Below, piece by piece: positions 4,063 to 63,250 of a stretch of 64,000 nucleotides of DNA. The stretch covers positions 21,925 to 85,924 of IMG/VR virus record IMGVR_UViG_3300037116_000081; one strand, 5' to 3'. The translations under genes were made by a program, and so were the position numbers. Every line of letters starts with the position of its first letter. Positions within the stretch are counted from its first letter, which is position 1. This stretch comes from a virus. A model generated the notes under the pieces. It was not told where the DNA came from. It was given only the letters and a program-made list of their open reading frames with translations, and did not search any database.

Positions 4063-4238
4063 AAATGTTCCTTTCAAACAATCCTGACGTAGCCGAACTC
4101 TTAGGCGCTGGGCTCATCGCTCTGTTCTTCATGCTGGGCGACTACTACGCTTCACGTGTGGAAGGCGGGTACACGATCGCGCGGTCAGTGGAAACGATTC
4201 GCGATATGTCGGCTTCAGTTCAAGAGGGCACACCATGA
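4059..4238 (+). CDS. small single-pass membrane protein
   Basis: A 59-residue ORF whose ATG overlaps the stop of the preceding gene (ATGA) and whose own stop overlaps the next ATG. Residues ~13-28 (ELLGAGLIALFFMLGDYY) form one membrane segment followed by a charged helix. Gene packing supports that it is real. Function unknown. Confidence 0.55.
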   Translation: MKMFLSNNPDVAELLGAGLIALFFMLGDYYASRVEGGYTIARSVETIRDMSASVQEGTP

Positions 4239-4345: not shown

Positions 4346-4596
4346 ACGATAATCCGCTAGGCCCATTGCAGGGCACATCGAGTCAGCAGTTCCACCTGAA
4401 CACGCTGGATTTCCAGAAAGTCGGCCGCATGGTGCTAGTGCAGATCATCGGGCTCGGCCTGACGCTCGGGGTTCCGTGGTTGCTGAAGCTTTCCTACGTG
4501 TGGAAGGGCCACGATTACACGCCAGATGTCCTGATCGTGGTGAACTGCGTAGCTGAACTGGGGAGACGTTTTCTGACCGGGGCACCGAAGACCTGA
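4342..4596 (+). CDS. membrane protein, paralogue of 24669-24923
   Basis: An 84-residue protein with one or two membrane segments (VLVQIIGLGLTLGVPWLLKL; VLIVVNCVAELG). It is about 80% identical by eye to the product of 24669-24923 (shared NPLG..QGTSS.QFHLN, LSYVW.GHDYT, RRFLTGAPKT). Its size and topology resemble phage holins, but that is only a guess. The start follows A hairpin 4301-4323 and its GGAG. Confidence 0.6.
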   Translation: MNDNPLGPLQGTSSQQFHLNTLDFQKVGRMVLVQIIGLGLTLGVPWLLKLSYVWKGHDYTPDVLIVVNCVAELGRRFLTGAPKT

Positions 4597-4605
4597 AAGG
4601 AACCC

Positions 4606-4761
4606 ATGAAAGATATCATTCAACGAGTGCTGCTTGAACAGACGAACCTCTCGGACGCAAAGGCGGAGTATGTGGCACGGGAAATCGTGAACGCGTTGGG
4701 GCCTTACGCGCGGAACGATGATATCGGCAGCAGAACCGAGTACGCGGAGTCCGCAACTTAA
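4606..4761 (+). CDS. hypothetical 51-residue protein
   Basis: ATG at 4606 follows an AAAGGA ribosome binding site and the ORF stops at 4761. The product is a charged helical protein (KDIIQRVLLEQTNLSD...YVAREIVNALG). No family recognised. It lies inside hairpin-bounded cassette 1. Confidence 0.5.
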   Translation: MKDIIQRVLLEQTNLSDAKAEYVAREIVNALGPYARNDDIGSRTEYAESAT

Positions 4762-4773
4762 AAGTAGAGGCGT

Positions 4774-5181
4774 GTGTTAACCTTGATGTTGAATCCGTTC
4801 GCTGATTACCACTTCATCTTTGATATCATCTCTGGCGTTGCGGTTGTCGCGGGCTCCTACTTCGGGCTCATGATAAAGAACGCGCTCGGGGCCATCCGGC
4901 TAGAGCAGGCCAACGCGAAGTCCGAACTACTCTTACAGCAATCGCACACGAAAGCAGAACTACTCGCCCATCAGAACGAAGTCAAAGAGGAAATGCTCGA
5001 ACAGCATGACGTGGTTGTCGAAGGGCAGCACGATTTAAGGGCCGAGTTTGTGGATAAACACGCTGAAAACAAACAATCTCTTGCGGTTCACCTCAATGAC
5101 GATGACCGCCGATTTGAAGCCTTGAACACAGTGCTGGCGCGGATCGATAAGACGGTCGAGAAGATAGCCAACGGGCACTGA
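4774..5181 (+). CDS. membrane-anchored coiled-coil protein
   Basis: An N-terminal membrane segment (IFDIISGVAVVAGSYFGLMI) is followed by ~100 residues of charged heptad-like helix with internal repeats (SELLLQQ, KAELLAHQ). The start is GTG at 4774 after AGAGG, or ATG at 4786. The architecture is shared with 63299-63655. Spanin-like or holin-accessory roles are possible. Confidence 0.6.
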   Translation: MLTLMLNPFADYHFIFDIISGVAVVAGSYFGLMIKNALGAIRLEQANAKSELLLQQSHTKAELLAHQNEVKEEMLEQHDVVVEGQHDLRAEFVDKHAENKQSLAVHLNDDDRRFEALNTVLARIDKTVEKIANGH

Positions 5182-5198
5182 CGACAGCCCAACCTTTG

Positions 5199-5223
5199 GG
5201 CGGGGATACTCCAGATCCCCGCC
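5199..5223 (+). repeat. C hairpin, cassette 1 closing
   Basis: 8-bp stem GGCGGGGA/TCCCCGCC and loop TACTCCAGA, 17 nt after the stop of the upstream gene. Preceded by CCTTTGG as in other C copies (CTTGG). No T-run follows, so it is not an ordinary terminator. 5224-5303 holds no gene, only a TATACT box near 5272. Confidence 0.8.
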
Positions 5224-5303
5224 GACACCTGACTGAGCACATTTGAACAGTATCAAAACCCCTGAACTGGGGTATACTCCAATCTGAAGAGGAGAAAACG
5301 AAA

Positions 5304-5597
5304 ATGTCTACCAAGCCTGTTCCAGCAACGGATAAAAACGAGAAAACCATCTCGGTGAACGTGGAAGGAAAATCGCGCCAAGTCGTCATTCAGCGGCACG
5401 AAACCACCACACACATTCTCGATCGGCTGAACCTGAAGGGCTATCAGCTCTCCATGGGGCCGAGCACGCCACAGAAAACTAACGTGCTCAACGCCGGCGA
5501 TATCGTTTTTGACAACGTAGTAGAAAACGAAGGGCTCGTCGCGACTGCGGTTCCGCCTGTCGGAAGACCTGCGCAACCTCAGCCCGTCAAAAAGTAG
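5304..5597 (+). CDS. small protein with possible beta-grasp fold
   Basis: A 97-residue protein with AGAGGAG upstream. The order strand (KTISVNVEGK), strand, helix (HILDRLNLKGYQL), then GDIVFDNVVENE is compatible with a ubiquitin/MoaD-like beta-grasp, but there is no C-terminal GG and similarity is only structural impression. The C-terminus is a Pro/Gln/Lys tail. A CCCC...GGGG palindrome overlapping a TATACT box lies at 5261-5277. Confidence 0.5.
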   Translation: MSTKPVPATDKNEKTISVNVEGKSRQVVIQRHETTTHILDRLNLKGYQLSMGPSTPQKTNVLNAGDIVFDNVVENEGLVATAVPPVGRPAQPQPVKK

Positions 5598-44762: not shown

Positions 44763-46133
44763 TTACTGACCGAAGCTCGCGACGGTCGAACGTCCGTCGA
44801 TGTTGACTCCACCCATGACTCCGACAATTTTCATATCCTGGTCCATACTGTAGAAGTCGCCCATCATCGGATCGACGCCGCCGCCCATCCGCATGGTGTT
44901 CGGCACCTTCTGGAAAATCTGCGGAGTCTCGAACCCTTGCAAGAAGCCAACTTCGGTAGCGGGCCGGTTCTGAGAATTCGGATCAACCGTGATGCCCCAC
45001 ATTTTGTGCTGGACACCGGAAGCCGTACACACGATCGGGATGTAAGGGTCCATAACCAATTGCAGGTTTTGGACAATCCAGTTTCCGACTTTCACAGCCT
45101 GTGCCGGGAAGCCAGTCGCACCAGCTTGCGTACCACCCTGGACTGATACCGTGACTTCCAGCATCTTCATCAAGTTCATTGCGGTGGCGTAATAGGACGG
45201 CGGGTACCACAGAATCATCGTGCCAGTGATCAGGATCGGGTCACCTGTCGAGTCGCGCATTCCTGCCAAGATCGCGCAAGCATCCTGTAGCCCTTGGATC
45301 GAAAGAGGAGGATTGTCGGACGATGCGCCGTTGGCGAGGTTGATGAGGTTGCCGTAGCCGGAGTTGTACAGCGTGGCGTTTGGTCCATTCGCGTCAACGT
45401 AAAAGCCGGTGATGAACTTGCTGATCCCACGGTTGCCCTGGATCGCGAGACGATTCGAGAGATCCTTGAAAATCCCGAGATCGTCATTCACGAACGCGCG
45501 CCAGTTCACCGAGGTCATCGACTGATAGAGCAACGGCTGATACTGAATCGGCGCCGTCGAGGTGGCTGCGGTCGCTGGCACGGCTCCATCTTGCGGAGCC
45601 GGGCCAAACAGAGCTTTCTGCGGAGGCGGTGCCGCGGCATCCATGGCCGTGTAGGGAGTCACCGCGCCGTCAAGCAGGTAGCGCGAGACCAAACGGAAAT
45701 CTCGAAGCGTGTGGATCTTGACCAGCGATTTGTTGACGATCGGGTAGGCGTTGTAGAAGCCATAGTACATCCGATCCAGCACGTCCACATAGAGCGCCTG
45801 GTAATCGGTGACCGACATCGTTTCGCGCAATCCCAACTGCCGGCCTCCGGGGTCTCCATAGATGCCCGGATACTTCTCCATCAGGTGGCGCACGAAAACT
45901 TCGTTGCGCGGTTGAATCGCTTCCTTGATGAAGATCGGATCGATTCGCCCCGCGAGAGCATCGGCATAAAGCCGAGCCGCTTCGAGAACTCGCCGGTCAT
46001 GTCCCGGCCCGGCATTGCGCCGTGCGGCCGCGAAGCCTTGCATGGACTTGTCGTCAGCTACCGGCCCAGCCAGGACACTGGAGCTGTCGAACCCACGCCC
46101 AGCTTCGCTTGCAATCATTGTCATTTTCGACAT
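44763..46133 (-). CDS. major capsid protein
   Basis: 456 residues, located between decoration and connector genes. N-terminal arm, then domain segments QPLLYQSMTSVNWRAFVNDD and IKEAIQPRNEVFVRHLMEKY; C-terminal beta strands (KVGNWIVQNLQLVMDPYIPI). Fits HK97-fold capsid proteins of the Mu-like/MuF-type phages. Position and size support assignment more than motifs. Confidence 0.82.
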   Translation of the reverse strand: MSKMTMIASEAGRGFDSSSVLAGPVADDKSMQGFAAARRNAGPGHDRRVLEAARLYADALAGRIDPIFIKEAIQPRNEVFVRHLMEKYPGIYGDPGGRQLGLRETMSVTDYQALYVDVLDRMYYGFYNAYPIVNKSLVKIHTLRDFRLVSRYLLDGAVTPYTAMDAAAPPPQKALFGPAPQDGAVPATAATSTAPIQYQPLLYQSMTSVNWRAFVNDDLGIFKDLSNRLAIQGNRGISKFITGFYVDANGPNATLYNSGYGNLINLANGASSDNPPLSIQGLQDACAILAGMRDSTGDPILITGTMILWYPPSYYATAMNLMKMLEVTVSVQGGTQAGATGFPAQAVKVGNWIVQNLQLVMDPYIPIVCTASGVQHKMWGITVDPNSQNRPATEVGFLQGFETPQIFQKVPNTMRMGGGVDPMMGDFYSMDQDMKIVGVMGGVNIDGRSTVASFGQ

Positions 46134-46138
46134 TGGTG

Positions 46139-46546
46139 TTAGCCTCCCGTCACAATCTCGACTACCGCTGTGGTGGAAGTCGTACCGCTGGTTACTGCCG
46201 GCGCGCTCGGATCAAGATTTCCGAAGAACGCGCCGCCGCTGGCAGCGTCGAGCGTGAACCCGTAAGTCACGTTCGTTGGGCCATCGGTTGTTCCGCCGTC
46301 CGCGTACACCTTGTCACCAGGATTGATCTGGTGGCCAGTTTGCGGAGACAACACCGTCGCTCCCACTACAGTGAGGTTAAAACTCCCGTTCAGCAGAAAC
46401 GTGGTGCCTCCGGTGTTGGCCTGGTAATTGTCCAACGCCACTGCCGGGATCTTGCCGAGCAGTACGGGTTGCCCTGCCACGATGCTCGAAGGACAAAGCG
46501 CAAAGCGCCGACTGGTCGGGGTTCCGGTAAATACTTGGTTCTTCAT
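46139..46546 (-). CDS. capsid decoration-like protein (DUF2190-like)
   Basis: 135 residues, beta-rich with VAGQPVLLGKIPAVALDNYQ, NGSFNLTVVGATVLSPQTGH and KVYADGG, matching DUF2190/gpD-like capsid stabilising proteins. Directly between protease and capsid genes. Confidence 0.75.
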   Translation of the reverse strand: MKNQVFTGTPTSRRFALCPSSIVAGQPVLLGKIPAVALDNYQANTGGTTFLLNGSFNLTVVGATVLSPQTGHQINPGDKVYADGGTTDGPTNVTYGFTLDAASGGAFFGNLDPSAPAVTSGTTSTTAVVEIVTGG

Positions 46547-48223
46547 TTAGGAAGCCCTCCCAGCTACCGCGAATTTCGCAGCTTCTTTGTTGCCCATCAG
46601 CTCTTCGAAAACACCGACCGATTCCTTAAAGGCTCGCTTGTCGGCTTTCCGTGCGGCCTTCTGATCGGCTTCGGTCATCTGCACAACCGGAGCGCCGCCC
46701 AAACCAGTGATCCGCCCCGCGCCGGTAAGCTCAGCGACATACTGACCCTCGGATTTGGCCTCAGCGTTCAGCCGTTCGGTGAACTTCGTCACGTCCAGCG
46801 CGCCGTCTTTCAACGGAAGCGCTTCGCGCAACACAGTCTCGATGACTTTGCGCTTGGACGATTCGGGGAGCGTGACGGATTCGAGAAGCTTGGTTGCTTC
46901 CTCCCGCGCATCGCCCTTCAATGCTCGCTCAGTGAGCGAGACAACAGGAGTTTGCACGGCAGCTAGCGCCGCGGTTACGGCTGCTGCTGTGGTGGTCTCC
47001 ACTAGCTTTTTGATTTCTTCGTCTGTCATAGTGCTCTCCTGTTGAGATTGCGGCTTAGCCGCCTCGGTCAAAATCATTCCACCGGCCCCAGCTCGCGTTA
47101 CGACATCCACGCTTTCGGCGCCGGTCAACTGTTTCAAGATCGGTACTCCGTCACGCATCTTGCCGGCTTCGGCTACTCCAGATGCTCGAATGCTCATGCC
47201 GGTAAAAGCTGCTTTCTCTTTCACGAGAGGAGCATAGTCGCTGGTGAACAGCGCGCTACCGTACAAGCCAGGTCCAGCTTTGCCGGCTTCATCGTAGTAG
47301 GCGTTCGACTCCAAAGCGCCCGCGAGTTTGTGCCAATCGCCTTCCGGCCGCGCCGATTCTTCCGCAGAGGTCGCATGGTTGATGTAGATGTGCGTGCCCT
47401 TCGTGAAAACGTTCGGCCCGTCGCGCTTCAAAACTTCGGCGGGATAGAAAGCTGAGGAACCTTTACCTGGAGCGATGAGCTTGATTGGCATCCGCACCGA
47501 GTCGCCAGCCGACTCGACCAGGTGCAACGCAGTTTCTTTTCTCCAATCGCTCGACTCGACAAGCTTCAGCGTGCCAGCCTCTGTGTGCGAAGTTTGGGAC
47601 TCGGTTGCGTCCGCTCCGTCTTGCCAAGCTTTGGGCAGGTATTTCGTCCAGCCCTTTTTCTTCGCAATCCGAATGATGCTCGACTTCAGCGAGTCGGTGC
47701 TCTTATTGTCCGAGCCAGCGCGCCCCATGGATCGCACAGCCGCCATCACATCCGCTGGTTTCAAGATTGGAAAGCTTTTGCCCTTGCCGGCGAAGTCCGA
47801 GGAGTCAGCGGCGTCACGTTCCGACTTCGCAATGAACCGCTCAGCGAAAAGCATCCGGCGCCCATCGTGATCCAACGCTTTCGCGCGCTTCGCCTCATCG
47901 GTTGACATCCCAACGTAATGATCTTCCTCGTCGGCTTCTTCGTCGTACACCGTCCGGGGAATCACATTGATGGCCTGGTCGTCGTCAATCGCCGTGGTGC
48001 GCTTGCCGTTCACCATTCCGATTTCATACGGAGCTTTCCAGGTGTCGGAATCGGCGTGGAAAACCACGTCGCCTGATTCATCGTCACCGTAGATGTCGCA
48101 CACGTAGCAGTACTCGCCTGGGAACATGTCGCGCAGCTCGTCCGAGAGCGCTGCGCAAATGTCTTTTTGGGAAAGTTCGAGAGCTTCCTGGAGAGCGAGC
48201 GCTTGGGTCCGGCTATACGCCAT
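46547..48223 (-). CDS. capsid maturation protease with scaffold-like tail
   Basis: 558 residues. Residues ~1-230 form an extra N-terminal region (EYCYVCDIYGDDESGDVVFH; TIAKKKG-like basic end). Residues ~240-390 form the protease core: PIKLIAPGKGSSAFYPAEVL, HINHATSAEE (catalytic His) and FTGMSIRASGVAEAG (catalytic Ser). The C-terminal ~150 residues are a charged helix (EEIKKLVETTTAAAVTAALA), scaffold-like. Cuts scaffold and capsid arms during maturation. Confidence 0.82.
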   Translation of the reverse strand: MAYSRTQALALQEALELSQKDICAALSDELRDMFPGEYCYVCDIYGDDESGDVVFHADSDTWKAPYEIGMVNGKRTTAIDDDQAINVIPRTVYDEEADEEDHYVGMSTDEAKRAKALDHDGRRMLFAERFIAKSERDAADSSDFAGKGKSFPILKPADVMAAVRSMGRAGSDNKSTDSLKSSIIRIAKKKGWTKYLPKAWQDGADATESQTSHTEAGTLKLVESSDWRKETALHLVESAGDSVRMPIKLIAPGKGSSAFYPAEVLKRDGPNVFTKGTHIYINHATSAEESARPEGDWHKLAGALESNAYYDEAGKAGPGLYGSALFTSDYAPLVKEKAAFTGMSIRASGVAEAGKMRDGVPILKQLTGAESVDVVTRAGAGGMILTEAAKPQSQQESTMTDEEIKKLVETTTAAAVTAALAAVQTPVVSLTERALKGDAREEATKLLESVTLPESSKRKVIETVLREALPLKDGALDVTKFTERLNAEAKSEGQYVAELTGAGRITGLGGAPVVQMTEADQKAARKADKRAFKESVGVFEELMGNKEAAKFAVAGRAS

Positions 48224-48666: not shown

Positions 48667-48877
48667 AAAGAGCCGCGCCGCCTACTTCCGCCAACGCCGC
48701 GAAACACTTCGGAAAACACGCGGAATGCAGGAGAAGCGGCTATTTCAACAGGGTGTGGAAGCTTTGAGGAAAACAGCTATCGAGGTATTCCGAGGGATCG
48801 GATTAGGGGAGATGAACGGCTACACCGCAGCCGAAGTGGTCAAAGACCTGAAACTGGATGTTCCACGTGAAACGTAG
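48626..48877 (+). CDS. small basic helical protein on the + strand
   Basis: Frame MVVKVSGSSPDSQQKSRAAY then FRQRRETLRKTRGMQEKRLF, ends VVKDLKLDVPRET. The only + strand gene in the right half. If the tRNA-like RNA is real the start is probably later, e.g. ATG 48725. Overlaps the cytosine methyltransferase end by 38 nt. Could be a small regulator. Confidence 0.4.
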   Translation: MVVKVSGSSPDSQQKSRAAYFRQRRETLRKTRGMQEKRLFQQGVEALRKTAIEVFRGIGLGEMNGYTAAEVVKDLKLDVPRET

Positions 48878-49736
48878 GCTTAAAGACTCTCGCAATATGC
48901 TGAGCCAGCGGAAAAGGAATCTTCGCGATTGCAGCAGAAGCAGCTTTACGGCCCGGTGATCTCGATGAGTACTTGTGTGTGAGACTTTCGGGATCGTGCC
49001 ACCATTCGCCGCCCTGCTTCGTGCCGGTGCTTTTCATCGCGTCTACGGCAGCGCCTTGGAAGCAACGGTTGGTATTCCCTTTGCCGTCGCGCCTCCATCC
49101 ACAATCACCAACTTTCATGGCTTGCCGGAGGGTGGGGATTGGCATCAGTGCTGGAAGATCGCCCCAAAGATAGTAGCTACCAAATTTCCACCGCGCCGCG
49201 CCAACCCACTTCTCAGCCCCGCGCACGTTCTCTACAATCAGCGGAATGTACCGCCCAGCCGCTTCCGATGCTTCCCGCTGCAATCGAAAGCACGTCTCAA
49301 ACAGCGTGTTATCCGGTGGCGCCTTCAGATGCTTTCTTCGCCAGATGGCCCACTCGGCCATGTCTTGCAATGTCATGCAGGGCGCGTCTCCGTCTTTACG
49401 TGCGTCCAGTGGCTTGTACTCCGGCAGTCTCCACCAACTCGGCTCCGGCAAGCCCACTTCTTCTGGCGTTAGAGCTTTCGACTGCTTCCACGGCATCGCT
49501 CGGTAGCTGTACGCCTGACATGGTGGGCTCGCCACGATCACATCAGCGTTGCGGAACTGCGAGCCGTGCAGCGTGGTAACGTCCTGCAAGACAAGTTGCC
49601 CTGGATACCCGCCAGTGCCGTAATCGTGGCGCTCAACATCAAACCCGATCACGTCCCAGCCTTCTGAGAGAAAGCCTTCCGCCCACCCACCGAGACCGCA
49701 GAACAGGTCAATCGCTAAAGGACGGATCTGGTTCAT
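48840..49736 (-). CDS. C5-cytosine DNA methyltransferase
   Basis: 298 residues from ATG 49736 (upstream in-frame starts overlap the previous gene). Motif I IDLFCGLGGWAEGF, motif IV VASPPCQAYS (catalytic Cys in PPCQ), motif VI-like VENVRGAE, and a final AIAKIPFPLAQHIARV. Complete enzyme, presumably modifies phage DNA against restriction. Second DNA methyltransferase besides 5892-6308. Confidence 0.88.
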   Translation of the reverse strand: MNQIRPLAIDLFCGLGGWAEGFLSEGWDVIGFDVERHDYGTGGYPGQLVLQDVTTLHGSQFRNADVIVASPPCQAYSYRAMPWKQSKALTPEEVGLPEPSWWRLPEYKPLDARKDGDAPCMTLQDMAEWAIWRRKHLKAPPDNTLFETCFRLQREASEAAGRYIPLIVENVRGAEKWVGAARWKFGSYYLWGDLPALMPIPTLRQAMKVGDCGWRRDGKGNTNRCFQGAAVDAMKSTGTKQGGEWWHDPESLTHKYSSRSPGRKAASAAIAKIPFPLAQHIARVFKPTFHVEHPVSGL

Positions 49737-50982
49737 AGCTGATTGAGCACCGACAATTCGGATGTGCGGGTGGCTCATCGTCTCCCGAATCAAACGGAGC
49801 TTCCGAGTCGATCGCTTCCATGTCGGCGTTGGCTTGGCAATCTTCGCAGGGATCGTCTTCCGTTTCCCAGGTCTTCAATACTGGCCCGTTGCCGCCGCGC
49901 CAGTCGTTTACGAAGTCCGCTGCGCCGCCGTGGTAAGCCTCCGACACTTCGTTGAGCGCCACGCTGTCAGCTCGCGAGTTTCCCGCCGCATCCGTTGTAG
50001 CCCATTCCTTGAACTGCGCCGCGACAAGTCCGAGAACCGCTGCGTGGGTCAGATCGCCGGCATAAGATCTGCTGATTGTGTCGCCCAATTGCTTTTGGGT
50101 CGTATCGTCCAGCTCGTCCTCGAGGTCCGTCACCGTTCTGGCGACTCCAGGAAGCGTCGGCAACGTTGGCTTAGCTTTCGCTTCCCGAGGTTTCGGCAGT
50201 TGCGCCTGGGCCAGCAGCGCGCCACTATCGTAGGCTTTAGCGACTACCGCTGCGTACATCCGGGAAAGGTTCGCATCCCGAATATGGAGCGCCGATCGCC
50301 AGTTATCCAAGCCGGCCGCTTTGATCGCCTTGGCCTGCTTTTTGAATCGCCCAACAACGGCTCTCTTGAGCTTCGCGACCAGCGGATCAATCACTTTGGC
50401 TCTGCTCGCGCGCCGCAAGTTCTCGGTGAGTTCCAAAGCTCCATCGGCTACCGCTTCCTCAGCCGCGCCTTCTCGAAGCTGCATGGCCAGCTTGGGAGTC
50501 AAGAACCAGCGAAAGCCGGTCAACGCCTCGTCACCTTCGATCACTTCCTTGTGATCGGTATTCACCATTGCCATCGAGCCGTGCGAGAAAAGATTGTGTC
50601 CAGCGTCGAATCCGAAACAGATCGCCGCGAGCATCGGCATTATGAGCGGATCGTGGGTCACGATCAGCACGCGGTAAGGATGCTCGGGATCTTCGTCCAC
50701 TCCGACACTGCGCACGATCCTACGCCACGCGTCGTTTGGGTTCCCATCAGGCTCCAACTGCGGAAATTCATACAGCGGCTCTTCGTCGGTCACTTCCACC
50801 ACGGTGTCAAACGCTCGCTCGAACGGACTACTGAACGTGAAGTCGAACTTCACTCCGAGGTCCTTCAGGTACTTTCGGATTGCCTTGCACTGCTCTTTCC
50901 CTAAATCAGTGAGTGTGCGATTCGGGTCCATCTGCGCGCCTGGTGTGCAGTGCGCATGACGCATCAAATAATATTTCGGCAC
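49708..50982 (-). CDS. fusion of a SixA-like phosphohistidine phosphatase and a MuF/SPP1 gp7-like head protein
   Basis: 424 residues, GTG start. Residues 1-150 carry all histidine-phosphatase motifs: LMRHAH (H9), SSPFERAFDT (R56) and VLIVTHDP (H110). A connecting region follows. Residues ~180-424 have the minor head protein pattern (FKKQAKAIKAAGLDNWRSAL, TISRSYAGDLTHAAVLGLVA) with the C-terminal cysteines PCEDCQ...HPNCRCSISYE of MuF/gp7 proteins. Located after the portal as usual for MuF. The fused phosphatase is unusual. Promoter 50989-51021 predicts a leaderless transcript. Confidence 0.8.
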   Translation of the reverse strand: MPKYYLMRHAHCTPGAQMDPNRTLTDLGKEQCKAIRKYLKDLGVKFDFTFSSPFERAFDTVVEVTDEEPLYEFPQLEPDGNPNDAWRRIVRSVGVDEDPEHPYRVLIVTHDPLIMPMLAAICFGFDAGHNLFSHGSMAMVNTDHKEVIEGDEALTGFRWFLTPKLAMQLREGAAEEAVADGALELTENLRRASRAKVIDPLVAKLKRAVVGRFKKQAKAIKAAGLDNWRSALHIRDANLSRMYAAVVAKAYDSGALLAQAQLPKPREAKAKPTLPTLPGVARTVTDLEDELDDTTQKQLGDTISRSYAGDLTHAAVLGLVAAQFKEWATTDAAGNSRADSVALNEVSEAYHGGAADFVNDWRGGNGPVLKTWETEDDPCEDCQANADMEAIDSEAPFDSGDDEPPAHPNCRCSISYEPDPSFSD

Positions 50983-51324: not shown

Positions 51325-51605
51325 GCCCCTGGTGGAAAGTCACCTTGATTGTAGTCCAGTAGTTTAAGCCAGACGTGCCAGCCACAGCCGCCGCCCGCCC
51401 ACCCTTGCACCGGAATCGCCTCAGTAGCGTGATAGTACGAAGCCGTTACCGTTCCATCCGCGTGAACGTGATGAGCCGCTGCCGTGTTTCTCTGGCCACA
51501 CCGGCAAACGATGATCGGTCGGCAAACTTTCCCGTCCCATGTGTGCGGTATCCAGCACGGCCCCGGAGTGCTGTAGTTACCTCTCGGGATTTCAGTGAGC
51601 ATCAT
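51321..51605 (-). CDS. hypothetical Cys/His protein
   Basis: 94 residues; IIVCRCGQRNTAAAHHVHAD and GGCGWHVWLKLLDY. Start overlaps the portal stop (ATGATG at 51600-51605). Confidence 0.5.
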   Translation of the reverse strand: MMLTEIPRGNYSTPGPCWIPHTWDGKVCRPIIVCRCGQRNTAAAHHVHADGTVTASYYHATEAIPVQGWAGGGCGWHVWLKLLDYNQGDFPPGA

Positions 51606-53584
51606 TTCCCGTTGACCGTCTCGTAAGCTTCCAGCGCGCCTTTCAGCTTGCTAAACGCCTCTTTGGTCGTAGCCCTCGGTTGCTGGCCCGGTTGCGGAAT
51701 GGCTGCCTGTTGCGGTGGTGGATCTATCCCGCCTGGCGCTTGCGGTGCGCCTCCAGGATCAGGCAACGCTTTCATGATCGGCGCCGGTAACGGTTCCTTC
51801 GTCCGGTCAGGATCGTACTCATCCTCGGGATACTGCTCTTCGGTCAACTCGTCGCCATTCTCCATCCCGAGCAATTCGTAGAGCCTTCGGACGCCCGCCT
51901 TCTCGTCAATGCCGACTACCTGCCCGCCTTTGTTGCCCAGCGTCATTGCGTCTGTCGTAGCCGTGATGAGCTGCGGGATGTCGCCCTCTCGAATCGCCGG
52001 AAAGCTCACCTTGACTTCAATCAAGTTCTTCTTTTTGGCGTCTGGATCAGCTTCCCACACCCACTGGCCGCGCTCGTTCTGGTAGCGCTTCATCTCAACG
52101 ATGCGTAACTTGACGCCGCCCGCCGCTTCTTTCAGCTTGCCGCCCGCCGCGCCGCTCGAAATCTTAAGCACGTATTTGGCGATGATCGTCAGATCCTCAC
52201 GCCATTCTTCCTGGAAAGCAAGAAATACCAACTCGGTCGGGCGATCCAACGTCGTCGCCGTCGCGAGGTTCCCGGTTGACACATCGCCGAGAAACGTTTC
52301 AGGAACGCCCTTGGTCATGCAGCACATCAGCTTATATTGCCTTACGTCTTCTGGATCACCTCCCCCACCCCGTGTGTTGAAAGCTTGCAAAGTAGTTCCC
52401 GGCCCGCTCGCGAAGATCGAAGCGTTTACTGCAGTTGGGTTCGTGTCCCAGATCGCGGCCGATGGCCCAACGGTTGTGCTCAATTGCTGCTTGGCGCCTT
52501 CCATGGCCTGCTGTCCACCCTTGGTAGTCAACGTAGCTACAATCTGAGCGAGCGATAGCCTGACGGTCATGCAGGCTTCAAGGAAGCGCCTCGCAGCGCG
52601 CGCCCAGTCGATTGCCGGGTACATCCTCGGACAGCCGAAAGTCCACTTGGCGACGTCGCCGCACTTGCGGTGATGCACCGGCGTGTCCCACATCACTGGG
52701 ATGCTATTGAAGCTCGCAGGCTTCGCGGTTGGCTCGTAGTTGAGCGCCGGGTAGTAAGCTTTTTGGCTCTTGAAATCCCAAATGCCGTTTGCTTCGTTCC
52801 AGAACTTCTGACTCCACACGCGAAGGAAATACCACTCAGTGTCCGAATCGTCCGGGTCTGAAACGATTTCCTGCATCTCGGTTGCGTCAATCGTGCGAAG
52901 CTTCACTTTGCCGGTGTTCACCTTGTCAGGAAAGAACGCGAAGAAGAGATTGCCGTCGTAGTCCTTCATTCTTTCCATCTTGGCCAAGCCGACTTGACCA
53001 AGGACAGCCGCGTTGTCTTCCCGGAACTCTTTCAGCACTTCATTGGCGGTTTCGTTTGTGCTCGACATCTCGACGCCACGCCCGAACACGTACGCCGCGC
53101 AAACATCGATCAGTCGGCGAAGGATCGGGTTCTTGATGTAGTAGAGCCGTGAAATCAGGATGATTTGCTGAATGCCCCATCGTGTGAATTCGAGCCACGA
53201 TAGATTGATCTGGCGTTGCCAATCCACGTTTTGAAGTGCCAACTCGATGTCTCCGAAAGCCCCTTGTGAGATTTGCGGGACACCTTCTCTCAACGGCACC
53301 GCGGATTCCTGAGCCATCGCCTGTTGAGCGCTCGCGATCAGACGATTACTTTGCTGGACTACTTCCTGTGAAATCTTCCACGGTCCCGAACCGGACATTC
53401 GTACAGCCTCAACCATCTCAGCAATGAGTTCCGCGCCGGCCTCACGTCGCTCGCGTTGCTTGGCGTCGAGCTCGATGTAGGCTTCAGCGATCGCACGCTC
53501 ACGAGCAGAAAGCGGAGGTTCAGGCTTTTGAGGAGAGAGGCGAAGGTAGAGCCGTTTGAGGAGAGCTAGAAACCATCGGCGCAT
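51602..53584 (-). CDS. portal protein
   Basis: 660 residues. Segments LISRLYYIKNPILRRLIDVC, YVFGRGVEMSS, FFAFFPDKVNTGKVKLRTID and KYVLKISSGA are in the order of siphovirus portal proteins; Pro/Gln-rich C-terminal tail. Twelve copies form the DNA channel. Confidence 0.85.
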   Translation of the reverse strand: MRRWFLALLKRLYLRLSPQKPEPPLSARERAIAEAYIELDAKQRERREAGAELIAEMVEAVRMSGSGPWKISQEVVQQSNRLIASAQQAMAQESAVPLREGVPQISQGAFGDIELALQNVDWQRQINLSWLEFTRWGIQQIILISRLYYIKNPILRRLIDVCAAYVFGRGVEMSSTNETANEVLKEFREDNAAVLGQVGLAKMERMKDYDGNLFFAFFPDKVNTGKVKLRTIDATEMQEIVSDPDDSDTEWYFLRVWSQKFWNEANGIWDFKSQKAYYPALNYEPTAKPASFNSIPVMWDTPVHHRKCGDVAKWTFGCPRMYPAIDWARAARRFLEACMTVRLSLAQIVATLTTKGGQQAMEGAKQQLSTTVGPSAAIWDTNPTAVNASIFASGPGTTLQAFNTRGGGGDPEDVRQYKLMCCMTKGVPETFLGDVSTGNLATATTLDRPTELVFLAFQEEWREDLTIIAKYVLKISSGAAGGKLKEAAGGVKLRIVEMKRYQNERGQWVWEADPDAKKKNLIEVKVSFPAIREGDIPQLITATTDAMTLGNKGGQVVGIDEKAGVRRLYELLGMENGDELTEEQYPEDEYDPDRTKEPLPAPIMKALPDPGGAPQAPGGIDPPPQQAAIPQPGQQPRATTKEAFSKLKGALEAYETVNGK

Positions 53585-53594: not shown

Positions 53595-54524
53595 TCATAC
53601 CACGCCGAACAGATCGAGGCCTTTGAACGTCTCCGCGCCGCGCTCTGCTACTAACCGGCGAACTTCAGCTTCTTGCCACAGCGGCTCATTGTCCAAATGC
53701 TGGTCGAGATAGCGAATCATCAGATCCTTATACGGCGCCCACCACTCTGCTGGTACGTTCGCAAAGGTCCACTCTAGCGCCCACGCCGGCTGAAGTCCGT
53801 ACATGATCGAACAATCGTGCGGTGAACGCCAAAGATTGTATTGCCGTTCAATCTCGGCAGTTGCCCTCGCTGGCCAGCGCAACCGCTCAGTAACTTTGTA
53901 CAGCGCGTGCTTCGCCTTCAACCGTCGCTCGCTTACACCCCACAGGTGAAAGCTTCCGCCCTGCCCGTGCTTGATCGGCTGATACGGTCGCAACTTTCCG
54001 CCGCCTGGATATTCCGGTTCCCTGCTGTGAAACTTGTCGCCGCTCCACCTCAGCCGCGGATCATCCTGAAACGCTACCGAAAGCCAGCGGTTTCCCCAAA
54101 TGCCGTTAGCGTGATAGCGATCGAGTGAGCCGCGAAGCTGGCACATCGGGAGTTGAAGGCAAGAGCCTTTCGGCATGTTCGCCACTGTACGCCGGATTAG
54201 CGGATATCCGCCATTCGATTCCAGCAGATTCCCTGTCAGGATTTCATCTGCATCTACTATGGCTATGTGGGTTGCACCTGCACCGCGCGCGATCTCCAGC
54301 ATCTGCTGGCGATGCGCCATCTCTGTCCAGCATTCGTGCCGATGCGTGCGCACGATGATCCGCCCAGGGTTCTCGCCATGGATGTCGGCAACGATGCGCG
54401 TGCTCTCGTCCGTGCAGGCGTGAAGCAGCACCACAACCATATCGCACCACAGCAGCGCTGCCCGCAATGTCAACCCGAGACACCAGGCTTCGTTTCGTAC
54501 CGGCATAATTCCTACGAGTTTCAT
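53595..54524 (-). CDS. glycosyltransferase family 2
   Basis: 309 residues; MKLVGIMPVRNEAWCLGLTL start, metal site VDADEI (D91-D93), LRGSLDRYHANGIWGNRW and C-terminal LMIRYLDQHLDNEP. Probably transfers a sugar to a virion, lipid or host glycan. Last gene of the terminase-portal island. Confidence 0.82.
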   Translation of the reverse strand: MKLVGIMPVRNEAWCLGLTLRAALLWCDMVVVLLHACTDESTRIVADIHGENPGRIIVRTHRHECWTEMAHRQQMLEIARGAGATHIAIVDADEILTGNLLESNGGYPLIRRTVANMPKGSCLQLPMCQLRGSLDRYHANGIWGNRWLSVAFQDDPRLRWSGDKFHSREPEYPGGGKLRPYQPIKHGQGGSFHLWGVSERRLKAKHALYKVTERLRWPARATAEIERQYNLWRSPHDCSIMYGLQPAWALEWTFANVPAEWWAPYKDLMIRYLDQHLDNEPLWQEAEVRRLVAERGAETFKGLDLFGVV

Positions 54525-54709
54525 TCAGGCCTCTGGTACGTCGCCAAGCCTTCCGCGGCCTCTTCAATTTCCGCGTCTGTCGCGCCGAGCACCTTCAGTG
54601 CCATATCGCGGAACCGTTCATCTTCAGCCCCTTGTTCCGGCCCGTAAGTTTCCCGCTGCGTAACTTCGTAGGCGTCCATCAGCTCGCGAATCGCTTGTAT
54701 TCTGTCCAT
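54521..54709 (-). CDS. hypothetical acidic helical protein
   Basis: 62 residues (DRIQAIRELMDAYEVTQRET, EEAAEGLATYQRPE). ATGA-coupled between the sigma factor and the glycosyltransferase. Confidence 0.5.
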   Translation of the reverse strand: MDRIQAIRELMDAYEVTQRETYGPEQGAEDERFRDMALKVLGATDAEIEEAAEGLATYQRPE

Positions 54710-55236
54710 CAAATCACATCCCCCACTTTCCGCACGCCGCGCTTCCGCAAAATCGCTTTCATCTCCCGTAACGCTCGCTCCAGAATCTGACTCGCTCGTC
54801 CCTCGCTTACCCCGAACGCCGCCGCTATCTCGTTCATCGAGCAGTCTTCCTGGAATCGCATCATCAGGCAATCGCGCCAGCGTTCCGGTAATTCCGCCAT
54901 CGTCTCAGCTATCAAATGCGCCGCGCTGTTCGGAGCCTTCGCTTCATCAATCAGCAGATCCGGCCGGCGAAGCTGCCGTTCGCTTACTGGATACGTTCGT
55001 GTGCCTGGTGCCAGCGCCCGCAACGCATCACCGACCGCACCAGCCATCCTACCTCTAAGCCAAGTCTTGAACGTCCCAAGCGCCCGATCGTACCGAGTCG
55101 CGTCTTTCACGATCCGCACATAAACACACCCCACGATGTCATCGCGATCCACCTGCCATGGCAGCCCTTTCGCTCGAAGTTTCACGCCAGTGCGGATGTA
55201 AGAAAAATGCTCAGCCACCAAGTCTCCGTTTTTCAT
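54709..55236 (-). CDS. RNA polymerase sigma factor, phage-encoded
   Basis: 175 residues from ATG 55236. Region 2: EHFSYIRTGVKLRAKGLPWQ, DDIVGCVYVRIVKDATRYDR, GTFKTWLRGRMAGAVGDALR. Region 4 helix-turn-helix: RWRDCLMMRFQEDCSMNEIA, FGVSEGRASQILERALREMK. Resembles FliA/sigma-28-like alternative factors. Coupled to the FkbM gene. Candidate reader of the TTGCGC-N17 promoters. Confidence 0.75.
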   Translation of the reverse strand: MKNGDLVAEHFSYIRTGVKLRAKGLPWQVDRDDIVGCVYVRIVKDATRYDRALGTFKTWLRGRMAGAVGDALRALAPGTRTYPVSERQLRRPDLLIDEAKAPNSAAHLIAETMAELPERWRDCLMMRFQEDCSMNEIAAAFGVSEGRASQILERALREMKAILRKRGVRKVGDVI

Positions 55237-55835
55237 GCTTTCAAAGTTAACACCGAATCCCAGTGCCCAAACCAATCGCCCAGCTTCGCGCGCGGATGCT
55301 GAGCGATCCGATAATCCGGCAACCGTCGCCACAGATCCTCGAAGTACGCCAGATTCTTCGTTGCGTCCGCTCCATCGTGAAACTCGACGCTGATCTGTTT
55401 CGCGATCGGCCCGGGCCAATTCCATAGGATGTCGAACTCCGAACCTTCGCAGTCGAGCTTCACCACGTCCCAGCGCTTTACCTCGCAGTGGCGCATCAGT
55501 GTGGTGATGTCGATGCAGGGGACTTCGTAAATTTTGGCGTCGTAATACTTGTCACCTTCGATCAGCAGATTCCCTTCGCCATCCGAGTAAGATGCGTAGT
55601 TCGATTTAGTCTTGCCGTCTCCAACCAGCGCCATGTTCCAGAACATGCAGAACGTGAAGTTTAGCGGCCCCGCAATTTCTTTGTCTGGGTCCATCGCGAT
55701 CACGATAGCTCCCGGCCTGAGCTTCAGAATCGCTTCAGTGAAGTCGAAGCGCCGGCATCCGACATCGAGAACGATTGGGATTTCCGGCAAGAGATCCACG
55801 TCGATGGTGTGCTCAGCTAATTTTTGGAGGTTCAT
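55233..55835 (-). CDS. FkbM-family methyltransferase
   Basis: 200 residues from ATG 55835. IPIVLDVGCRRFDFTEAIL (motif I), AIVIAMDPDKEI, and WDVVKLDCEGSEFDILWNW. Sugar O-methyltransferase type. Confidence 0.8.
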   Translation of the reverse strand: MNLQKLAEHTIDVDLLPEIPIVLDVGCRRFDFTEAILKLRPGAIVIAMDPDKEIAGPLNFTFCMFWNMALVGDGKTKSNYASYSDGEGNLLIEGDKYYDAKIYEVPCIDITTLMRHCEVKRWDVVKLDCEGSEFDILWNWPGPIAKQISVEFHDGADATKNLAYFEDLWRRLPDYRIAQHPRAKLGDWFGHWDSVLTLKA

Positions 55836-56466
55836 TAGGTTTCCTAAAATAGATCGGCGCCGGGTTCGTCGCTTCGAGGATCGCTTTCTTACATCCGGAG
55901 AGGTCGAAGTCGTCAACGATCACGTAGCCGCCTGGTGGGACAAGTGGGTATAGGTAGTCCATGCAGACCTTGGTGGAGCGGTAGAGATCGCCGTCGAGCC
56001 GAAGGACCGCGATACGCCAGCCTGGATCAAGCCGCCCAATGAGCGTGGCCGGCATTTCCATTGGTAAAACTTCCTGGAACCAGCCGGGATGATAGACCAG
56101 CAGTTCGTCTGGTATCCCCCAGTCCCGCATGTTCTTCTTGACGTCTTCGAGTGAGCATTTCGCCTCGCCGGCCGGCTTGTGCGCCAGCTCTGAATCTTCC
56201 GGCCCGGCCAACGGAATGCCCGCGAAGCTATCGAACAGATGGACACGCCGATTGTCGCTGAGCGCATACTCGCCACGGTTCGCAACGTGCTCCATGATTG
56301 CCTTCGCCATGATGGCCGAGCTGGCACCAGCGTAGACTCCGCATTCCACGAAGTCACCAGGTACACCGCGTTCGAGCGCCATGCGGCAAATGTCGTAGGT
56401 CATTTCCTGCGAGGTCCGATGGCCAAGCGAGTGGTAGCAAACTTTCTCCCACCAAGCGTTTGTCAT
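55813..56466 (-). CDS. TylF/macrocin O-methyltransferase family
   Basis: 217 residues. VPGDFVECGVYAGASSAIMA, VHLFDSFAGIP, WRIAVLRLDGDLYRSTKVCM and GGYVIVDDFDLSGCKKAIL are the TylF signature including metal-binding DD. Methylates sugar hydroxyls. Confidence 0.85.
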   Translation of the reverse strand: MTNAWWEKVCYHSLGHRTSQEMTYDICRMALERGVPGDFVECGVYAGASSAIMAKAIMEHVANRGEYALSDNRRVHLFDSFAGIPLAGPEDSELAHKPAGEAKCSLEDVKKNMRDWGIPDELLVYHPGWFQEVLPMEMPATLIGRLDPGWRIAVLRLDGDLYRSTKVCMDYLYPLVPPGGYVIVDDFDLSGCKKAILEATNPAPIYFRKPNEPPKIS

Positions 56467-57251: not shown

Positions 57252-57751
57252 GTTTTCTCCATCCACACCCGATCGGCCAGCTCGTCGCTGTTGGTAAGCG
57301 TCAATGTCGCTGGACTGAAGCGCTTGTCAACAAATTGATGCTTCCACAGATGCAGGATTGGTTCAAACGGTTTCATGATATCGGCCGCTCCCCAGTCATG
57401 CACCACAATATATGGTGCTGTTCGTGCGAAGATTTCCGCCGCTTCCGCTCGCTTATGTCCGTTGTGATCCAGAAAGACAACGGACCAAGGACCCTGCGCA
57501 ATTGTCTTCAATACGTCGCCCATAAAATCTAGATGGACGAAGCACGAACCGCAACGTTCTGCCCACTCTGCGTTTTCTTCTAGCGTCACAAACTCTCGCC
57601 GCGCGGTCTGACAAAAGGTTCGCAATAGTGGAGTACTCCACAACCCGGCACCGACCTCTAACACGGCTCCACTGGTGGCCATCAGCGCCGCGAACAATGA
57701 CGGCAAGTGCGAACCCCAGCATTGCTCAATTGGAACATCTTGCATATTCAT
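57248..57751 (-). CDS. class I SAM methyltransferase-like protein
   Basis: 167 residues; LFAALMATSGAVLEVGAGLW (motif I), FVTLEENAEW, WSVVFLDHNGHKRAEAAEI and PYIVVHDWGAADIM. Resembles small Rossmann methyltransferases acting in glycan pathways. Confidence 0.65.
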   Translation of the reverse strand: MNMQDVPIEQCWGSHLPSLFAALMATSGAVLEVGAGLWSTPLLRTFCQTARREFVTLEENAEWAERCGSCFVHLDFMGDVLKTIAQGPWSVVFLDHNGHKRAEAAEIFARTAPYIVVHDWGAADIMKPFEPILHLWKHQFVDKRFSPATLTLTNSDELADRVWMEKT

Positions 57752-58368
57752 CCCTTCACCACGATCAGGTTAGTTCCGTTTGCATACGTGCATCGATATC
57801 CCCGCTTTGTCGCGGCCTTCAGTAGTTCGGTAGTCCGCTCATCGTGCTCAACGCAGATACATCGAGTGTCCCAGTCGAGCTCCATGATCCGCAGAAATAT
57901 TTCTCCGCTCACGCCTTCCGCGTCGATGTTGATAAAGTCGAAGCCACCGCATACTATCGAAATTATTTCAGGAGTGATCCCCGGAACAGACACGAGACCG
58001 TAATACGTGACATCGTCGCGTTTCGACGGATTGCCGAGAATGGTACTGCTCGGCTGGTCACTCACCCGAAGATCGTACAGACCCCGTTCGAGCGCTACGA
58101 CTGCCTGTATCAACCTGATCCGCGGCTCAAACTTGTATTCCAGCAGCAGCGCTTCCATGTAGCGCGGCGCCGGCTCGATCATCACCCCTGACCAGCCGAG
58201 CTCGAAGAGTGCGCGTGTGTTCGATTTGTCGAATGGATCGCCAGCGCCGATATCCAGAAACTTGCCGCTCTTTTGCGCAGCGTCCCGACCGCCGAAACCG
58301 TGGGATTCCTTCCATGGCGTGTCGAATGCGGCCAGGATGTGCCTCTCTTCGTCTTCTTGGGAATACAT
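57748..58368 (-). CDS. FkbM-family methyltransferase
   Basis: 206 residues; SGKFLDIGAGDPFDKSNTRA, ELGWSGVMIEPAPRYMEALL and GGFDFINIDAEGVSGEIFLR. Standard FkbM core. Confidence 0.8.
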   Translation of the reverse strand: MYSQEDEERHILAAFDTPWKESHGFGGRDAAQKSGKFLDIGAGDPFDKSNTRALFELGWSGVMIEPAPRYMEALLLEYKFEPRIRLIQAVVALERGLYDLRVSDQPSSTILGNPSKRDDVTYYGLVSVPGITPEIISIVCGGFDFINIDAEGVSGEIFLRIMELDWDTRCICVEHDERTTELLKAATKRGYRCTYANGTNLIVVKG

Positions 58369-58814: not shown

Positions 58815-59611
58815 GCTATCGGCTCACTTCCTGGAAAACCCGCTGCCTTCCGCTGATTGAAAAGCGTCTGCGTCCGCTTCCAGTTCTCTTGACTGTTCGC
58901 CTCTCGCAGAAACTCCGGAATATCCGATCGTTGCGCGAGCGACTTTCGGCCCCAATGCTCATGCCTGTGCGTCAGGTCTTCCCGTTGCCACAGCACCCCA
59001 AGCTTCTTCGAGACTTCAAACAACTCCTCATCGTCAAACATGTGCCGATACTCAGGCCAGAACGGACCGTTACCTTGATACATTCGCCGGCAGAATTCGC
59101 GACCGAGCCACGGTGACCCACAGATACGATCAATGCGGGAAGCTGGCCAGGCTTTGAGATCACCGATAGGCTGCATCACACCGAAGGTTGACCAATATTT
59201 CCAGCTTGGCGCATTACTGCCAGATCCGCCTGGTGCGGCAACGTCAAAGGGAATGTGGCTCCACTTCGGCTTGGCGGGCGGATAGGTCAACTCCACGGTA
59301 TTGTAAAAACGTCCACTACACTGCTGGGCGATTTCTTCGGCCCGTACGTTTGGATCGGGGTAGATATCGTCTGACGCCGCTACTACCCAGTCGCAAGCCT
59401 TGTCCATCGCGAAGACTTGCCGCGCAAGAAAGTTCATTGACGCGCCCCAGCCTTCATACTTAGTCGTCACAACGCGAACGCTCGCGGCTACGACAGGATC
59501 GCACGAATCACGCATGACCACACTGATGTACCCCATGTCATGCCACGCCTGTAGGACCTTGTTCGCCACTTCCGCTGGACGCTTTGATGGGAAACACACC
59601 CAAACACTCAC
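58811..59611 (-). CDS. glycosyltransferase-like protein
   Basis: 266 residues from GTG 59611 in GTGA overlap. [40 protein letters not shown] (DD metal site), REFCRRMYQGNGPFWPEYRH. GT-A fold likely. Confidence 0.65.
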   Translation of the reverse strand: MSVWVCFPSKRPAEVANKVLQAWHDMGYISVVMRDSCDPVVAASVRVVTTKYEGWGASMNFLARQVFAMDKACDWVVAASDDIYPDPNVRAEEIAQQCSGRFYNTVELTYPPAKPKWSHIPFDVAAPGGSGSNAPSWKYWSTFGVMQPIGDLKAWPASRIDRICGSPWLGREFCRRMYQGNGPFWPEYRHMFDDEELFEVSKKLGVLWQREDLTHRHEHWGRKSLAQRSDIPEFLREANSQENWKRTQTLFNQRKAAGFPGSEPIA

Positions 59612-60357
59612 ACGTTTCCCTTCTCGTAGCTGTCTCCCATTGTCATCAAGATCCGTAGCCTCGTGTCCCAGCCGGTCTCTCGCTTCCATTCCAACGCTTC
59701 AGGCGTGACCTTGGCGTGCGTGTTGCCGCCGTGCAGCTCCGCTACCAGCATCGGCCGCCATGAGCCCTGTTGGTCCGGATTGTCGCCATACGATTGCAGC
59801 GACGTGCAAGCTGACGTCCGCTGGCCAAGCGTAAACAACCTGTCCTCGCCGGCACTTGTCGCCGTGAATGGATGCGTCTCCCAGTACTTCCGCCAATAAC
59901 AAAGGCTTGTCCCTACCGGTGATTTGTGATCCGCATGCCGCCACATCCACGCTTCCAATTTGAGTGAGTCCCAGAAGAGCAGATCGTTGTAACCTACGAT
60001 GTCGGCGTTCGAGGCTTGCAGCAGCCGAACCTGCTCTTCGATGCGATGCGGCGCCGACCAGTCGTCAGAGTCCCAGTGGATCAAAATGTCGGGGCCGTCG
60101 TCTCGCGCGTTGGCGCACACCCACAAATTTGCTTCGTTACGCAACGCCCCGATGGTTCGCCGCGGCGCATTCTCAGATCTCGCCAGTTCGATTCTCCCGC
60201 TGGCCAGCCGGTCCATCGCGTACGGCTTGATGCCTGTATCGTAGATCAGCAGCCGCGAATTCTCGTAGGTTTGACTCAAAAACGATTGCACGGCTCTGTC
60301 TGTATACGCCTGCCTGTCTGCCGTCAAGCAAACCGCTGTCACACTTAGGTTCTTCAA
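59608..60357 (-). CDS. glycosyltransferase family 2
   Basis: 249 residues; TTG start at 60357 chosen for AGGAGG and TTGA overlap. [40 protein letters not shown] (residues 96-100) and [13 protein letters not shown]. Clear GT2. Confidence 0.85.
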
Positions 60358-60863
60358 GCTGCCTCCTGTGGACGCTTCTGCCAGCGCCGTGGCCTTCTGT
60401 TGTTCGCCTGCTGAGTGTAGGTTGCCCACTGGCAATTTCCCGGAGAGTACGGACCATCATTATCCTTGCGATCCAACGTTACTCTTCCGACACGCGGCCC
60501 CATGTCTTCCACAAACGCCGTGAAGCTGTAACGCCACCGATCACACATTGTTACCCCGCGCCCACCGTAATCCGCATAACGGGGATCGGTTGGATTAAAG
60601 CAACGCTGCTTTGCAGAGTTCCACAATCGGTACAGTCTGGTCTTGCTCTGACCGTGTACCAGTCGCGCCGCTGCCGTCACCTCACGGCGCAAGCAACCAC
60701 AGCTCATGGTTTCGGCGCGCAACAATTGCCGTCCAACCGCTACCACTGAATTGCCGCACGAGCATAGACAATTCCATCTTGTCCTGGTTCCGAGATTGTC
60801 GGCTCTCGAAACAACCGTCAGCCGGCCGAACACGCGCCCGACAAGACTGAGCAGGTTAGGCAT
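60354..60863 (-). CDS. HNH homing-type endonuclease with zinc finger
   Basis: 169 residues; [20 protein letters not shown]...SCGCLRRE (zinc), [37 protein letters not shown] and [20 protein letters not shown]. Phage AP2/HNH homing endonuclease pattern. May have mobilised the island; inference. Confidence 0.8.
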
Positions 60864-61482: not shown

Positions 61483-62943
61483 CTATATCGGGCTGATTTG
61501 CTCGATTGGCTGCATTACCATTCCGGTCTGCCGTGGCTGCACTCGACAGAACGCCATAATTTCAGCCTCCGCCCGATCCGGTGATGATAGCCCACGCTTG
61601 CGTGAATCGTCCTTCGATTCGATCTCAATCAATCCGCGCCCGGTTTCTCGATACTGAATCCCGCACAGTTGCGCTTCTGTCTCTTCATCGAGCGCATCGG
61701 GTAACGTGCAGACGTAATCGGCTTTGTACATATCCCGCAGCCGAAAGTGAGCCTCAGCTTTCATGTTGACGAACTGCTCTACATCGATCGGCTTGTACCC
61801 GGCATTGAATCCCACCACTCGAAAGCCCTGGTCGGCCAGATGCAACGCGAAGTTGTAGCCGATGCCCACGATGTCCACTACCACAGGACCAAGCTCGTAT
61901 CCAGTGCTCCTGAGCCCGTGCAGCCACTTCGCACACGCTGCCCGTGGATCAGCATCGGGCCACGCCGCACGCGCAACCTTGATGCCGTTCACCCGTGCTA
62001 CAGCGGTCGTCTCATCGTCGCCAGGCCCGGCAACGTCGATGCCTGCCTGGATAAAACAACCTTTGGCCCGTGCGAGTTCAATCTCGTTCGGCTCTCGCTT
62101 CGCCCGTTCAATCCATTCGAGCGAGAAAACCGCATACTCGGATTGCGTCGGAAACTCGCCCAGCACACGAGACAGATACCGCGGGTTGTTCGGTCCCCAT
62201 CGCAGATACTTGTCAAGCACCCACCAGCGGGTTACGAGAAACGGCGCCGGCGCATATTCCAGTTCTTCCGGCGAAAGCGCCTTCAGTTCCTCGATCGTGA
62301 ATGGATAACCTGTCTTTTCGTTTTGCAGGTTTGGCGTGTCGAACGCGCTGATCGTGATGCACTCGGTCATCGCACGCCCGCGGCCGAAGTCGTCAAAAAA
62401 TGGCCCACTCGGAACCGTGGGATTGCCGAGCTTCAAGATCCGGACGCGTCCGCCGGCGCGGATGCCCTCTATCGCGTCCCATACCTCGCCTGAGATGCCA
62501 GGCGATTCGTCGGTGATAATCAGCACGTCCTGACCGTGGAAGCCTTGCGCGTTTACGCCCTTCGCCGAACTGAACCCTATCCCGTAGCGTTCCTCAGTGA
62601 TTCGCAGGCCAGCCGTCGAGCACTCCGGAAATTGCAGCGCGGATCCGCGGCGCGCCAATTCGATTTCCTCCCACATGAGCTTGACTTGGCGAAGCGTCGG
62701 CGCAATTGTGATAGCTTTGCCTTGTGGGAAAACCGCCAGATGTCTCAGAACGCACCCCGAAGTCACGTAGGTTTTGCCGGAAGCATGGCAGCCTTTCACC
62801 GCTGTGCTGCGTTTTGTTGCGCAGGCGTTAGCGATATCCTGTTGACGCTTCCAGAGCTTGCGGTGCAGGATTGCTTGCTGGAAGTTTACCGGGTCGCTGG
62901 CCAGCCGCGCGCGCTCGCGTTTATCAAGGGGTGGTGCTGTCAT
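61483..62943 (-). CDS. terL: terminase large subunit
   Basis: 486 residues from ATG 62943. ATPase: Walker A KGCHASGKT (50-58), Walker B VLIITDE (D145, E146). Nuclease domain: AGIDVAGPGDDETTAVARV, then LGPVVVDIVGIGYNFALHLA and later conserved Asp. Packages DNA into the prohead. Confidence 0.92.
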   Translation of the reverse strand: MTAPPLDKRERARLASDPVNFQQAILHRKLWKRQQDIANACATKRSTAVKGCHASGKTYVTSGCVLRHLAVFPQGKAITIAPTLRQVKLMWEEIELARRGSALQFPECSTAGLRITEERYGIGFSSAKGVNAQGFHGQDVLIITDESPGISGEVWDAIEGIRAGGRVRILKLGNPTVPSGPFFDDFGRGRAMTECITISAFDTPNLQNEKTGYPFTIEELKALSPEELEYAPAPFLVTRWWVLDKYLRWGPNNPRYLSRVLGEFPTQSEYAVFSLEWIERAKREPNEIELARAKGCFIQAGIDVAGPGDDETTAVARVNGIKVARAAWPDADPRAACAKWLHGLRSTGYELGPVVVDIVGIGYNFALHLADQGFRVVGFNAGYKPIDVEQFVNMKAEAHFRLRDMYKADYVCTLPDALDEETEAQLCGIQYRETGRGLIEIESKDDSRKRGLSSPDRAEAEIMAFCRVQPRQTGMVMQPIEQISPI

Positions 62944-63250
62944 CCGTGTCACGAAGCACGGCGTCAAAGGCTTCGAGCGGTATCAGTGGCGCGCCGTCTT
63001 TGCCTGTGACTTCCAGGCTAGTTTGTCGAAGTTGGGGATGAACGTACTTGGCCAGTTCCGCGTGCATCCTCGCTCGAATTGGCAGATCCGCTGTGGGGTC
63101 CGCCGCAATCATTGCCATGCCTTCGATGGGATTGACGCCAAGTTTATCGAGCAGTCCCGCGACGTCGCGCGTGATCTTGTTCTTGCTCTTGAGTTTGCGC
63201 CCGCCAACTTTCGGATGCCCTGGTTGAAATGTTGTGCTTGCCTTAGCCAC
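62924..63250 (-). CDS. terS: terminase small subunit-like protein
   Basis: 108 residues from GTG 63250, overlapping the large subunit by 20 nt. Basic N-terminus (GHPKVGGRKLKSKNKI) then helices (VAGLLDKLGVNPIEGMAMIA, IRARMHAELAKYVHPQ). Sequence and position fit the DNA-recognising small subunit. Confidence 0.75.
   Translation of the reverse strand: MAKASTTFQPGHPKVGGRKLKSKNKITRDVAGLLDKLGVNPIEGMAMIAADPTADLPIRARMHAELAKYVHPQLRQTSLEVTGKDGAPLIPLEAFDAVLRDTDDSTTP

Follow-up and report, generated by a model that had tools for sequence, protein, structure and literature searches.

The head gene cluster of related viral contigs encodes a SixA-like histidine phosphatase fused to a MuF-type head protein

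The window analysed here, a stretch of 64,000 nucleotides from a viral record of 85,924 bases, carries on its minus strand a single uninterrupted frame in which a SixA-type histidine phosphatase is joined to a MuF head-morphogenesis region ending in a Cys/His tail (Table 1). Continuity of the frame had been claimed in the original prediction and is borne out by the translation of the window; the plus-strand translation of the same positions contains stops, and no strand had been named in the original prediction. The portal gene lies upstream on the same strand with one short candidate gene in between, in agreement with the predicted location next to the portal. Spacer genes separate the fusion from the protease, and the order portal, fusion, protease and capsid protein is found in relatives as far as their contigs extend.

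Table 1. Positions of the fusion gene, its parts and the head cluster genes in the window
Feature	Position	Strand	Basis
SixA-MuF fusion gene, 424 aa, GTG start	49708..50982	-	Open frame; homologous fusion in 19 more contigs
SixA-type histidine phosphatase domain, residues 1-166, complete to closing strand	50485..50982	-	Profile, PDB sequence and fold matches
Catalytic R8-H9 (RH motif)	50956..50961	-	Invariant in 18 rows and E. coli SixA
Catalytic R56 (SSPFERAFDT)	50815..50817	-	Invariant
Catalytic H110 (VTHDPL)	50653..50655	-	Invariant
Closing strand FRWFLTP (E. coli SixA FNWQMSP)	50494..50514	-	Alignment with E. coli SixA
MuF head-morphogenesis region, residues 172-420	49723..50469	-	PHROG 2662 and PHROG 2468
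Cys/His tail CxxC...HPNCxC, residues 368-414	49741..49881	-	Nearly invariant in relatives with and without the fusion
Portal protein, upstream in head cluster	51602..53584	-	PHROG 10963, E 2.7e-53
Head maturation protease	46547..48223	-	PHROG 15531, E 2.4e-28
Head decoration (cement) protein	46139..46546	-	Phage_cement_2, E 1.8e-6
Major capsid protein	44763..46133	-	Phage_capsid_4, E 4.2e-15
Terminase large subunit	61483..62967	-	PHROG 2, E 1.6e-19

Other genes are found in and around the cluster. A frame at 48840-49793 (minus strand), which matches a cytosine-5 DNA methyltransferase in its N-terminal part only (Pfam positions 4-76 of 324), overlaps the end of the fusion gene. A sigma-70 family factor (54709-55425, minus strand; TIGR02937, E 8e-19) sits between terminase and portal and suggests a bacterial host, and glycosyltransferase-like, TylF-type and FkbM-type methyltransferase genes (53595-54524, 55813-56466, 57748-58368 and 59608-60435, minus strand) are situated within the packaging and head cluster. 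For both the capsid and the portal protein, the top matches listed among the annotated phage records are Methanoculleus viruses L4768/Blf4, with 29-32% identity. The related contig L003 has two portal-like genes, one at 2-1678 that is 81% identical to the window portal and a divergent one at 3605-5407 directly before its SixA-MuF gene. No tRNA was found in the 64-kb window.

The N-terminal half matches the NCBIfam SixA model (TIGR00249) over residues 4-145 (E 6e-14, 52.1 bits), Pfam His_Phos_1 (E 5.5e-9) and, by sequence, the E. coli SixA entry 1ujb of the PDB (E 9e-8). End-to-end alignment with E. coli SixA, a short SixA form, gives 27% identity and reaches the last strand, and this closing strand is present in each fused protein. 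All the SixA motifs that had been predicted are present, as MRHAH (R8, H9), SSPFERAFDT (R56) and VTHDPL (H110). Since 52.1 bits is below the equivalog cut-off of TIGR00249 (74.5 bits), the domain is SixA-like and not a SixA equivalog, and for the same reason the substrate of E. coli SixA cannot be transferred to the phage domain.

The C-terminal half matches PHROG 2662 (portal/MuF) over residues 172-419 (E 1.6e-14) and PHROG 2468 (head morphogenesis, E 7.6e-8). With Pfam Phage_Mu_F the window protein reaches 17.3 bits (E 0.008) against a gathering cut-off of 29.6, and the fused relative L144 exceeds both Pfam cut-offs (His_Phos_1 49.1 bits, Phage_Mu_F 42.8 bits). The unfused homologue L029, at the equivalent gene position, scores 48.8 bits with Phage_Mu_F, above the cut-off, and matches, at E 4.5e-30, the MuF profile of the fused family. 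The cysteine pattern expected in this half was recovered as C379-x2-C382 ... H407-P-N-C410-x-C412. Intein-like inserts split the tail between HPN and C in two contigs: in L038 (3836-4510 approx.) the insert is long, has Ala as its first residue and ends in ...VVSN ahead of CDC, and in L125, near the end of the MuF frame (1174-2529), it starts with CLPGDTVV and has a weak PT-HINT match (E 0.024).

Structure prediction was in accordance with both halves. The AlphaFold2 model used (14 rows, mean pLDDT 77, pTM 0.54), which replaced a 9-row model with pLDDT 70, is weak near residues 123-155 and 172-193, and its placement of the two halves relative to each other is unreliable. The best PDB fold match was again E. 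coli SixA (1ujb, E 2e-9, TM 0.81 on the target); other SixA-like entries came next, and there were further matches to alpha-ribazole phosphatase, PhoE, RosC and MutT1. Fold matches in the viral library were split between head-morphogenesis, minor capsid and portal proteins and histidine phosphatases.

A search for the same fusion found it in 20 viral contigs, the window counted, or about 17 distinct sequences because L144, L145, L147 and L148 are near-copies. It is carried by L002, L003 and L004 (82-90% identity to the window), by L023, L024, L025, L030 and L038 (36-42% identity), by L043, L045, L046, L053, L061 and L063, and by L144-L148. When the query was restricted to the SixA domain, 15 of the 15 viral relatives found were MuF fusions and none was free-standing, in a pattern-based search that detects only relatives with certain peptides and is no census. 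PF00300 gave no free-standing phosphatase in the unfused phages, in a search that overlooked the fused L043 as well. None of 50,697 phage records covered both halves of the window protein when this was the query, and SixA-domain queries of the phage records gave only three matches, two of them large Acinetobacter records annotated sixA and the third a 3.7-kb unannotated Salmonella record. Scans of the genome_contigs collection yielded no relatives.

The original prediction had named two findings that would speak against the fusion, separate genes in homologues and an active site missing in relatives. No split genes occurred in the homologues and the active site is kept in every fused relative. 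The chance that an assembly or sequencing artefact fused two genes is negligible, for independent contigs from many metagenomes show the same join with no internal stop, whereby the relatives already refute such an error, and no evidence supporting it was found. An internal start yielding a separate MuF protein was also considered and rejected. M167 lies near the domain boundary in the window group, and it is not a conserved feature because the divergent rows have no Met at that site; ribosome-site signals were inspected by eye.

In an alignment of 18 rows, among which phosphatase identity falls as low as 23%, just 13 of about 160 columns are invariant, and R8, H9, R56 and H110 are all among them. 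The chance of this is ~3e-5 by a rough hypergeometric estimate that ignores relatedness. The dN/dS of the phosphatase is about 0.28 between the window and L004 and 0.10 between the window and L002, and the domain is under purifying selection. Pseudogene decay is ruled out by the invariant active site together with dN/dS. A phosphatase fold retained as a non-catalytic structural or binding module would have precedent, as pseudoenzymes exist among histidine phosphatase relatives, and L024 is without R22, a residue otherwise conserved; the confinement of invariance to so few columns that nevertheless include the four core catalytic residues, and the purifying selection, make such a module highly improbable.

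Position 134 (50581-50583, minus strand) is an invariant His across the phage SixA domains and Thr in E. coli SixA, and H134 is possibly an extra pocket residue. Many small phosphates are substrates within the histidine phosphatase superfamily, and an injected enzyme could hydrolyse a small phosphorylated molecule, such as a nucleotide, a sugar phosphate or a defence signal, and not a phosphohistidine protein. The breadth of the superfamily, which is reflected in the non-SixA fold matches given above, and an invariant His not shared with E. coli SixA are consistent with a substrate of this kind. It is considered unlikely, however, with SixA proteins as the best matches in both sequence and fold and with an alignment that spans the whole of the short SixA form.

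In L053, L061, L063 and L146 the fusion has a nested form. The strand that closes the SixA domain (LHWMVTP and similar) is found past the MuF tail, 220-249 residues beyond the RH motif as opposed to 131-150 residues otherwise, which indicates that the tail is inserted in the loop preceding the last phosphatase strand. Judged from sequence comparison and from a motif with a background of 44 matches in 1.1 million residues, the MuF tail of the nested form is predicted to lie inside the phosphatase, with both parts in one chain.

The phosphatase is missing from the MuF or MuF-tail gene of five relatives (L029, L031, L048, L027 and L036). In a protease tree the fused label requires three changes. 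The fused L043 has L048 as its sister with support 99/95, and for this pair one loss is the simplest reading. From the sequences the phosphatase looks like an added, dispensable domain, and it is probably unnecessary for head assembly because it is absent from some MuF relatives, among them the sister of a fused phage. The same relatives bear on the alternative that the phosphatase acts no later than packaging, either in the cell that produces the particles or in the assembly of the head, in which case the fusion to MuF would serve portal positioning and not delivery. Such a role would fit a gene of the head cluster, but in view of the five genes lacking the domain it is distinctly unlikely.

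The closest known systems are MuF head proteins with added enzymes. The MuF polymorphic toxins of temperate phages (Jamet et al. 2017, PMC5576092) likewise combine a MuF head protein with an extra enzyme domain that is presumed to be delivered with the DNA, but there MuF is N-terminal and the C-terminal extension is mostly a nuclease, peptidase, ART or RelA-like domain, whereas here the phosphatase is N-terminal or nested. Ten related, possibly incomplete records gave no match to integrase or resolvase (PF00589, PF00239). MuF/portal fusions among polyvalent proteins, with PBECR, 2H phosphoesterase, RelA/SpoT, PRTase or zeta-toxin-like kinase (Iyer et al. 2017, PMC5512222), are alike as effector fusions. 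The MuF cargo known from these two studies consists of nucleases, peptidases, ADP-ribosyltransferases, alarmone synthases, kinases and the like, and a phosphatase is unmentioned in the main text of both. The gp7 of SPP1, a minor head protein adjoining the portal, is similar by MuF class and not by direct alignment, and unlike the fusion it has no phosphatase domain described (PMC6316719). E. coli SixA shares whole-domain homology, fold and all catalytic residues with the phage domain but is a free-standing cellular enzyme, whereas the phage domain scores below the equivalog cut-off and has H134. The view that no such fusion was known is upheld by its absence from the cultured phages searched and by literature searches pairing both domains; full-text search, with subscription journals and InterPro architectures outside its scope, found no paper that pairs a histidine phosphatase with a MuF or minor head protein. 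Among MuF-delivered effectors the phosphatase would be a new enzyme class, and it is new in being placed N-terminal or nested and not C-terminal.

The analysis shows directly that one polypeptide holds both parts, that the phosphatase has a SixA fold and keeps its catalytic residues intact under purifying selection, that the head genes are syntenic and that the architecture is conserved in divergent phages. Starting from these and from characterised homologues, we tentatively infer presence in the virion, ejection, activity and substrate, the reading that we favour being a virion cargo enzyme that would be ejected with the DNA and act on host phosphohistidine proteins. For SPP1 gp7, the model protein of the class, a few copies bind the portal and are taken with it into the procapsid; gp7 is not essential and aids the onset of infection (PMC6316719). 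MuF proteins carry enzyme domains that are thought to be delivered, one such protein having been found by phage proteomic analysis (PMC5576092). By analogy, the MuF half of the fusion would bind the portal and take few copies into the procapsid, and the fusion protein would exit with the DNA at infection. Known targets of E. coli SixA are NPr (PMC6282199, PMC7948535) and Ndk (PMC12934123). The SixA half may then strip phosphate from phosphohistidine of host phosphocarriers of the NPr/HPr type, of nucleoside diphosphate kinase or of histidine phosphotransfer domains, by which host phosphate relays or NTP metabolism would be reset ahead of phage gene expression. Of the targets suggested in the original prediction, a polyprotein has no support here. 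Since the join persists in divergent relatives with its active site intact, it is probable that these viruses bring a preformed phosphatase into the host cell.

We know of no takeover step acting on phosphohistidine that has been described for any virus. The fuller proposal is more doubtful than the cargo reading itself, namely that a phage lineage may inject a phosphohistidine phosphatase with its DNA, placed before, or wrapped around, the capsid-targeting tail, and may in this way, during the first minutes of infection, reset phosphate relays of the host or its NTP supply (PTS-type carriers, Ndk, two-component systems). In a review sixA is listed as a soil viral auxiliary gene, not validated (PMC12713726), which resembles the present case in that sixA occurs in uncultured viruses and differs in that it is classed there as a metabolic gene. 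Where sixA has been annotated in uncultured viruses as an auxiliary metabolic gene, its product may belong to the virion. If the proposal is true, a conserved phosphohistidine phosphatase cargo would suggest that host phosphohistidine signalling or NTP metabolism is targeted at entry.
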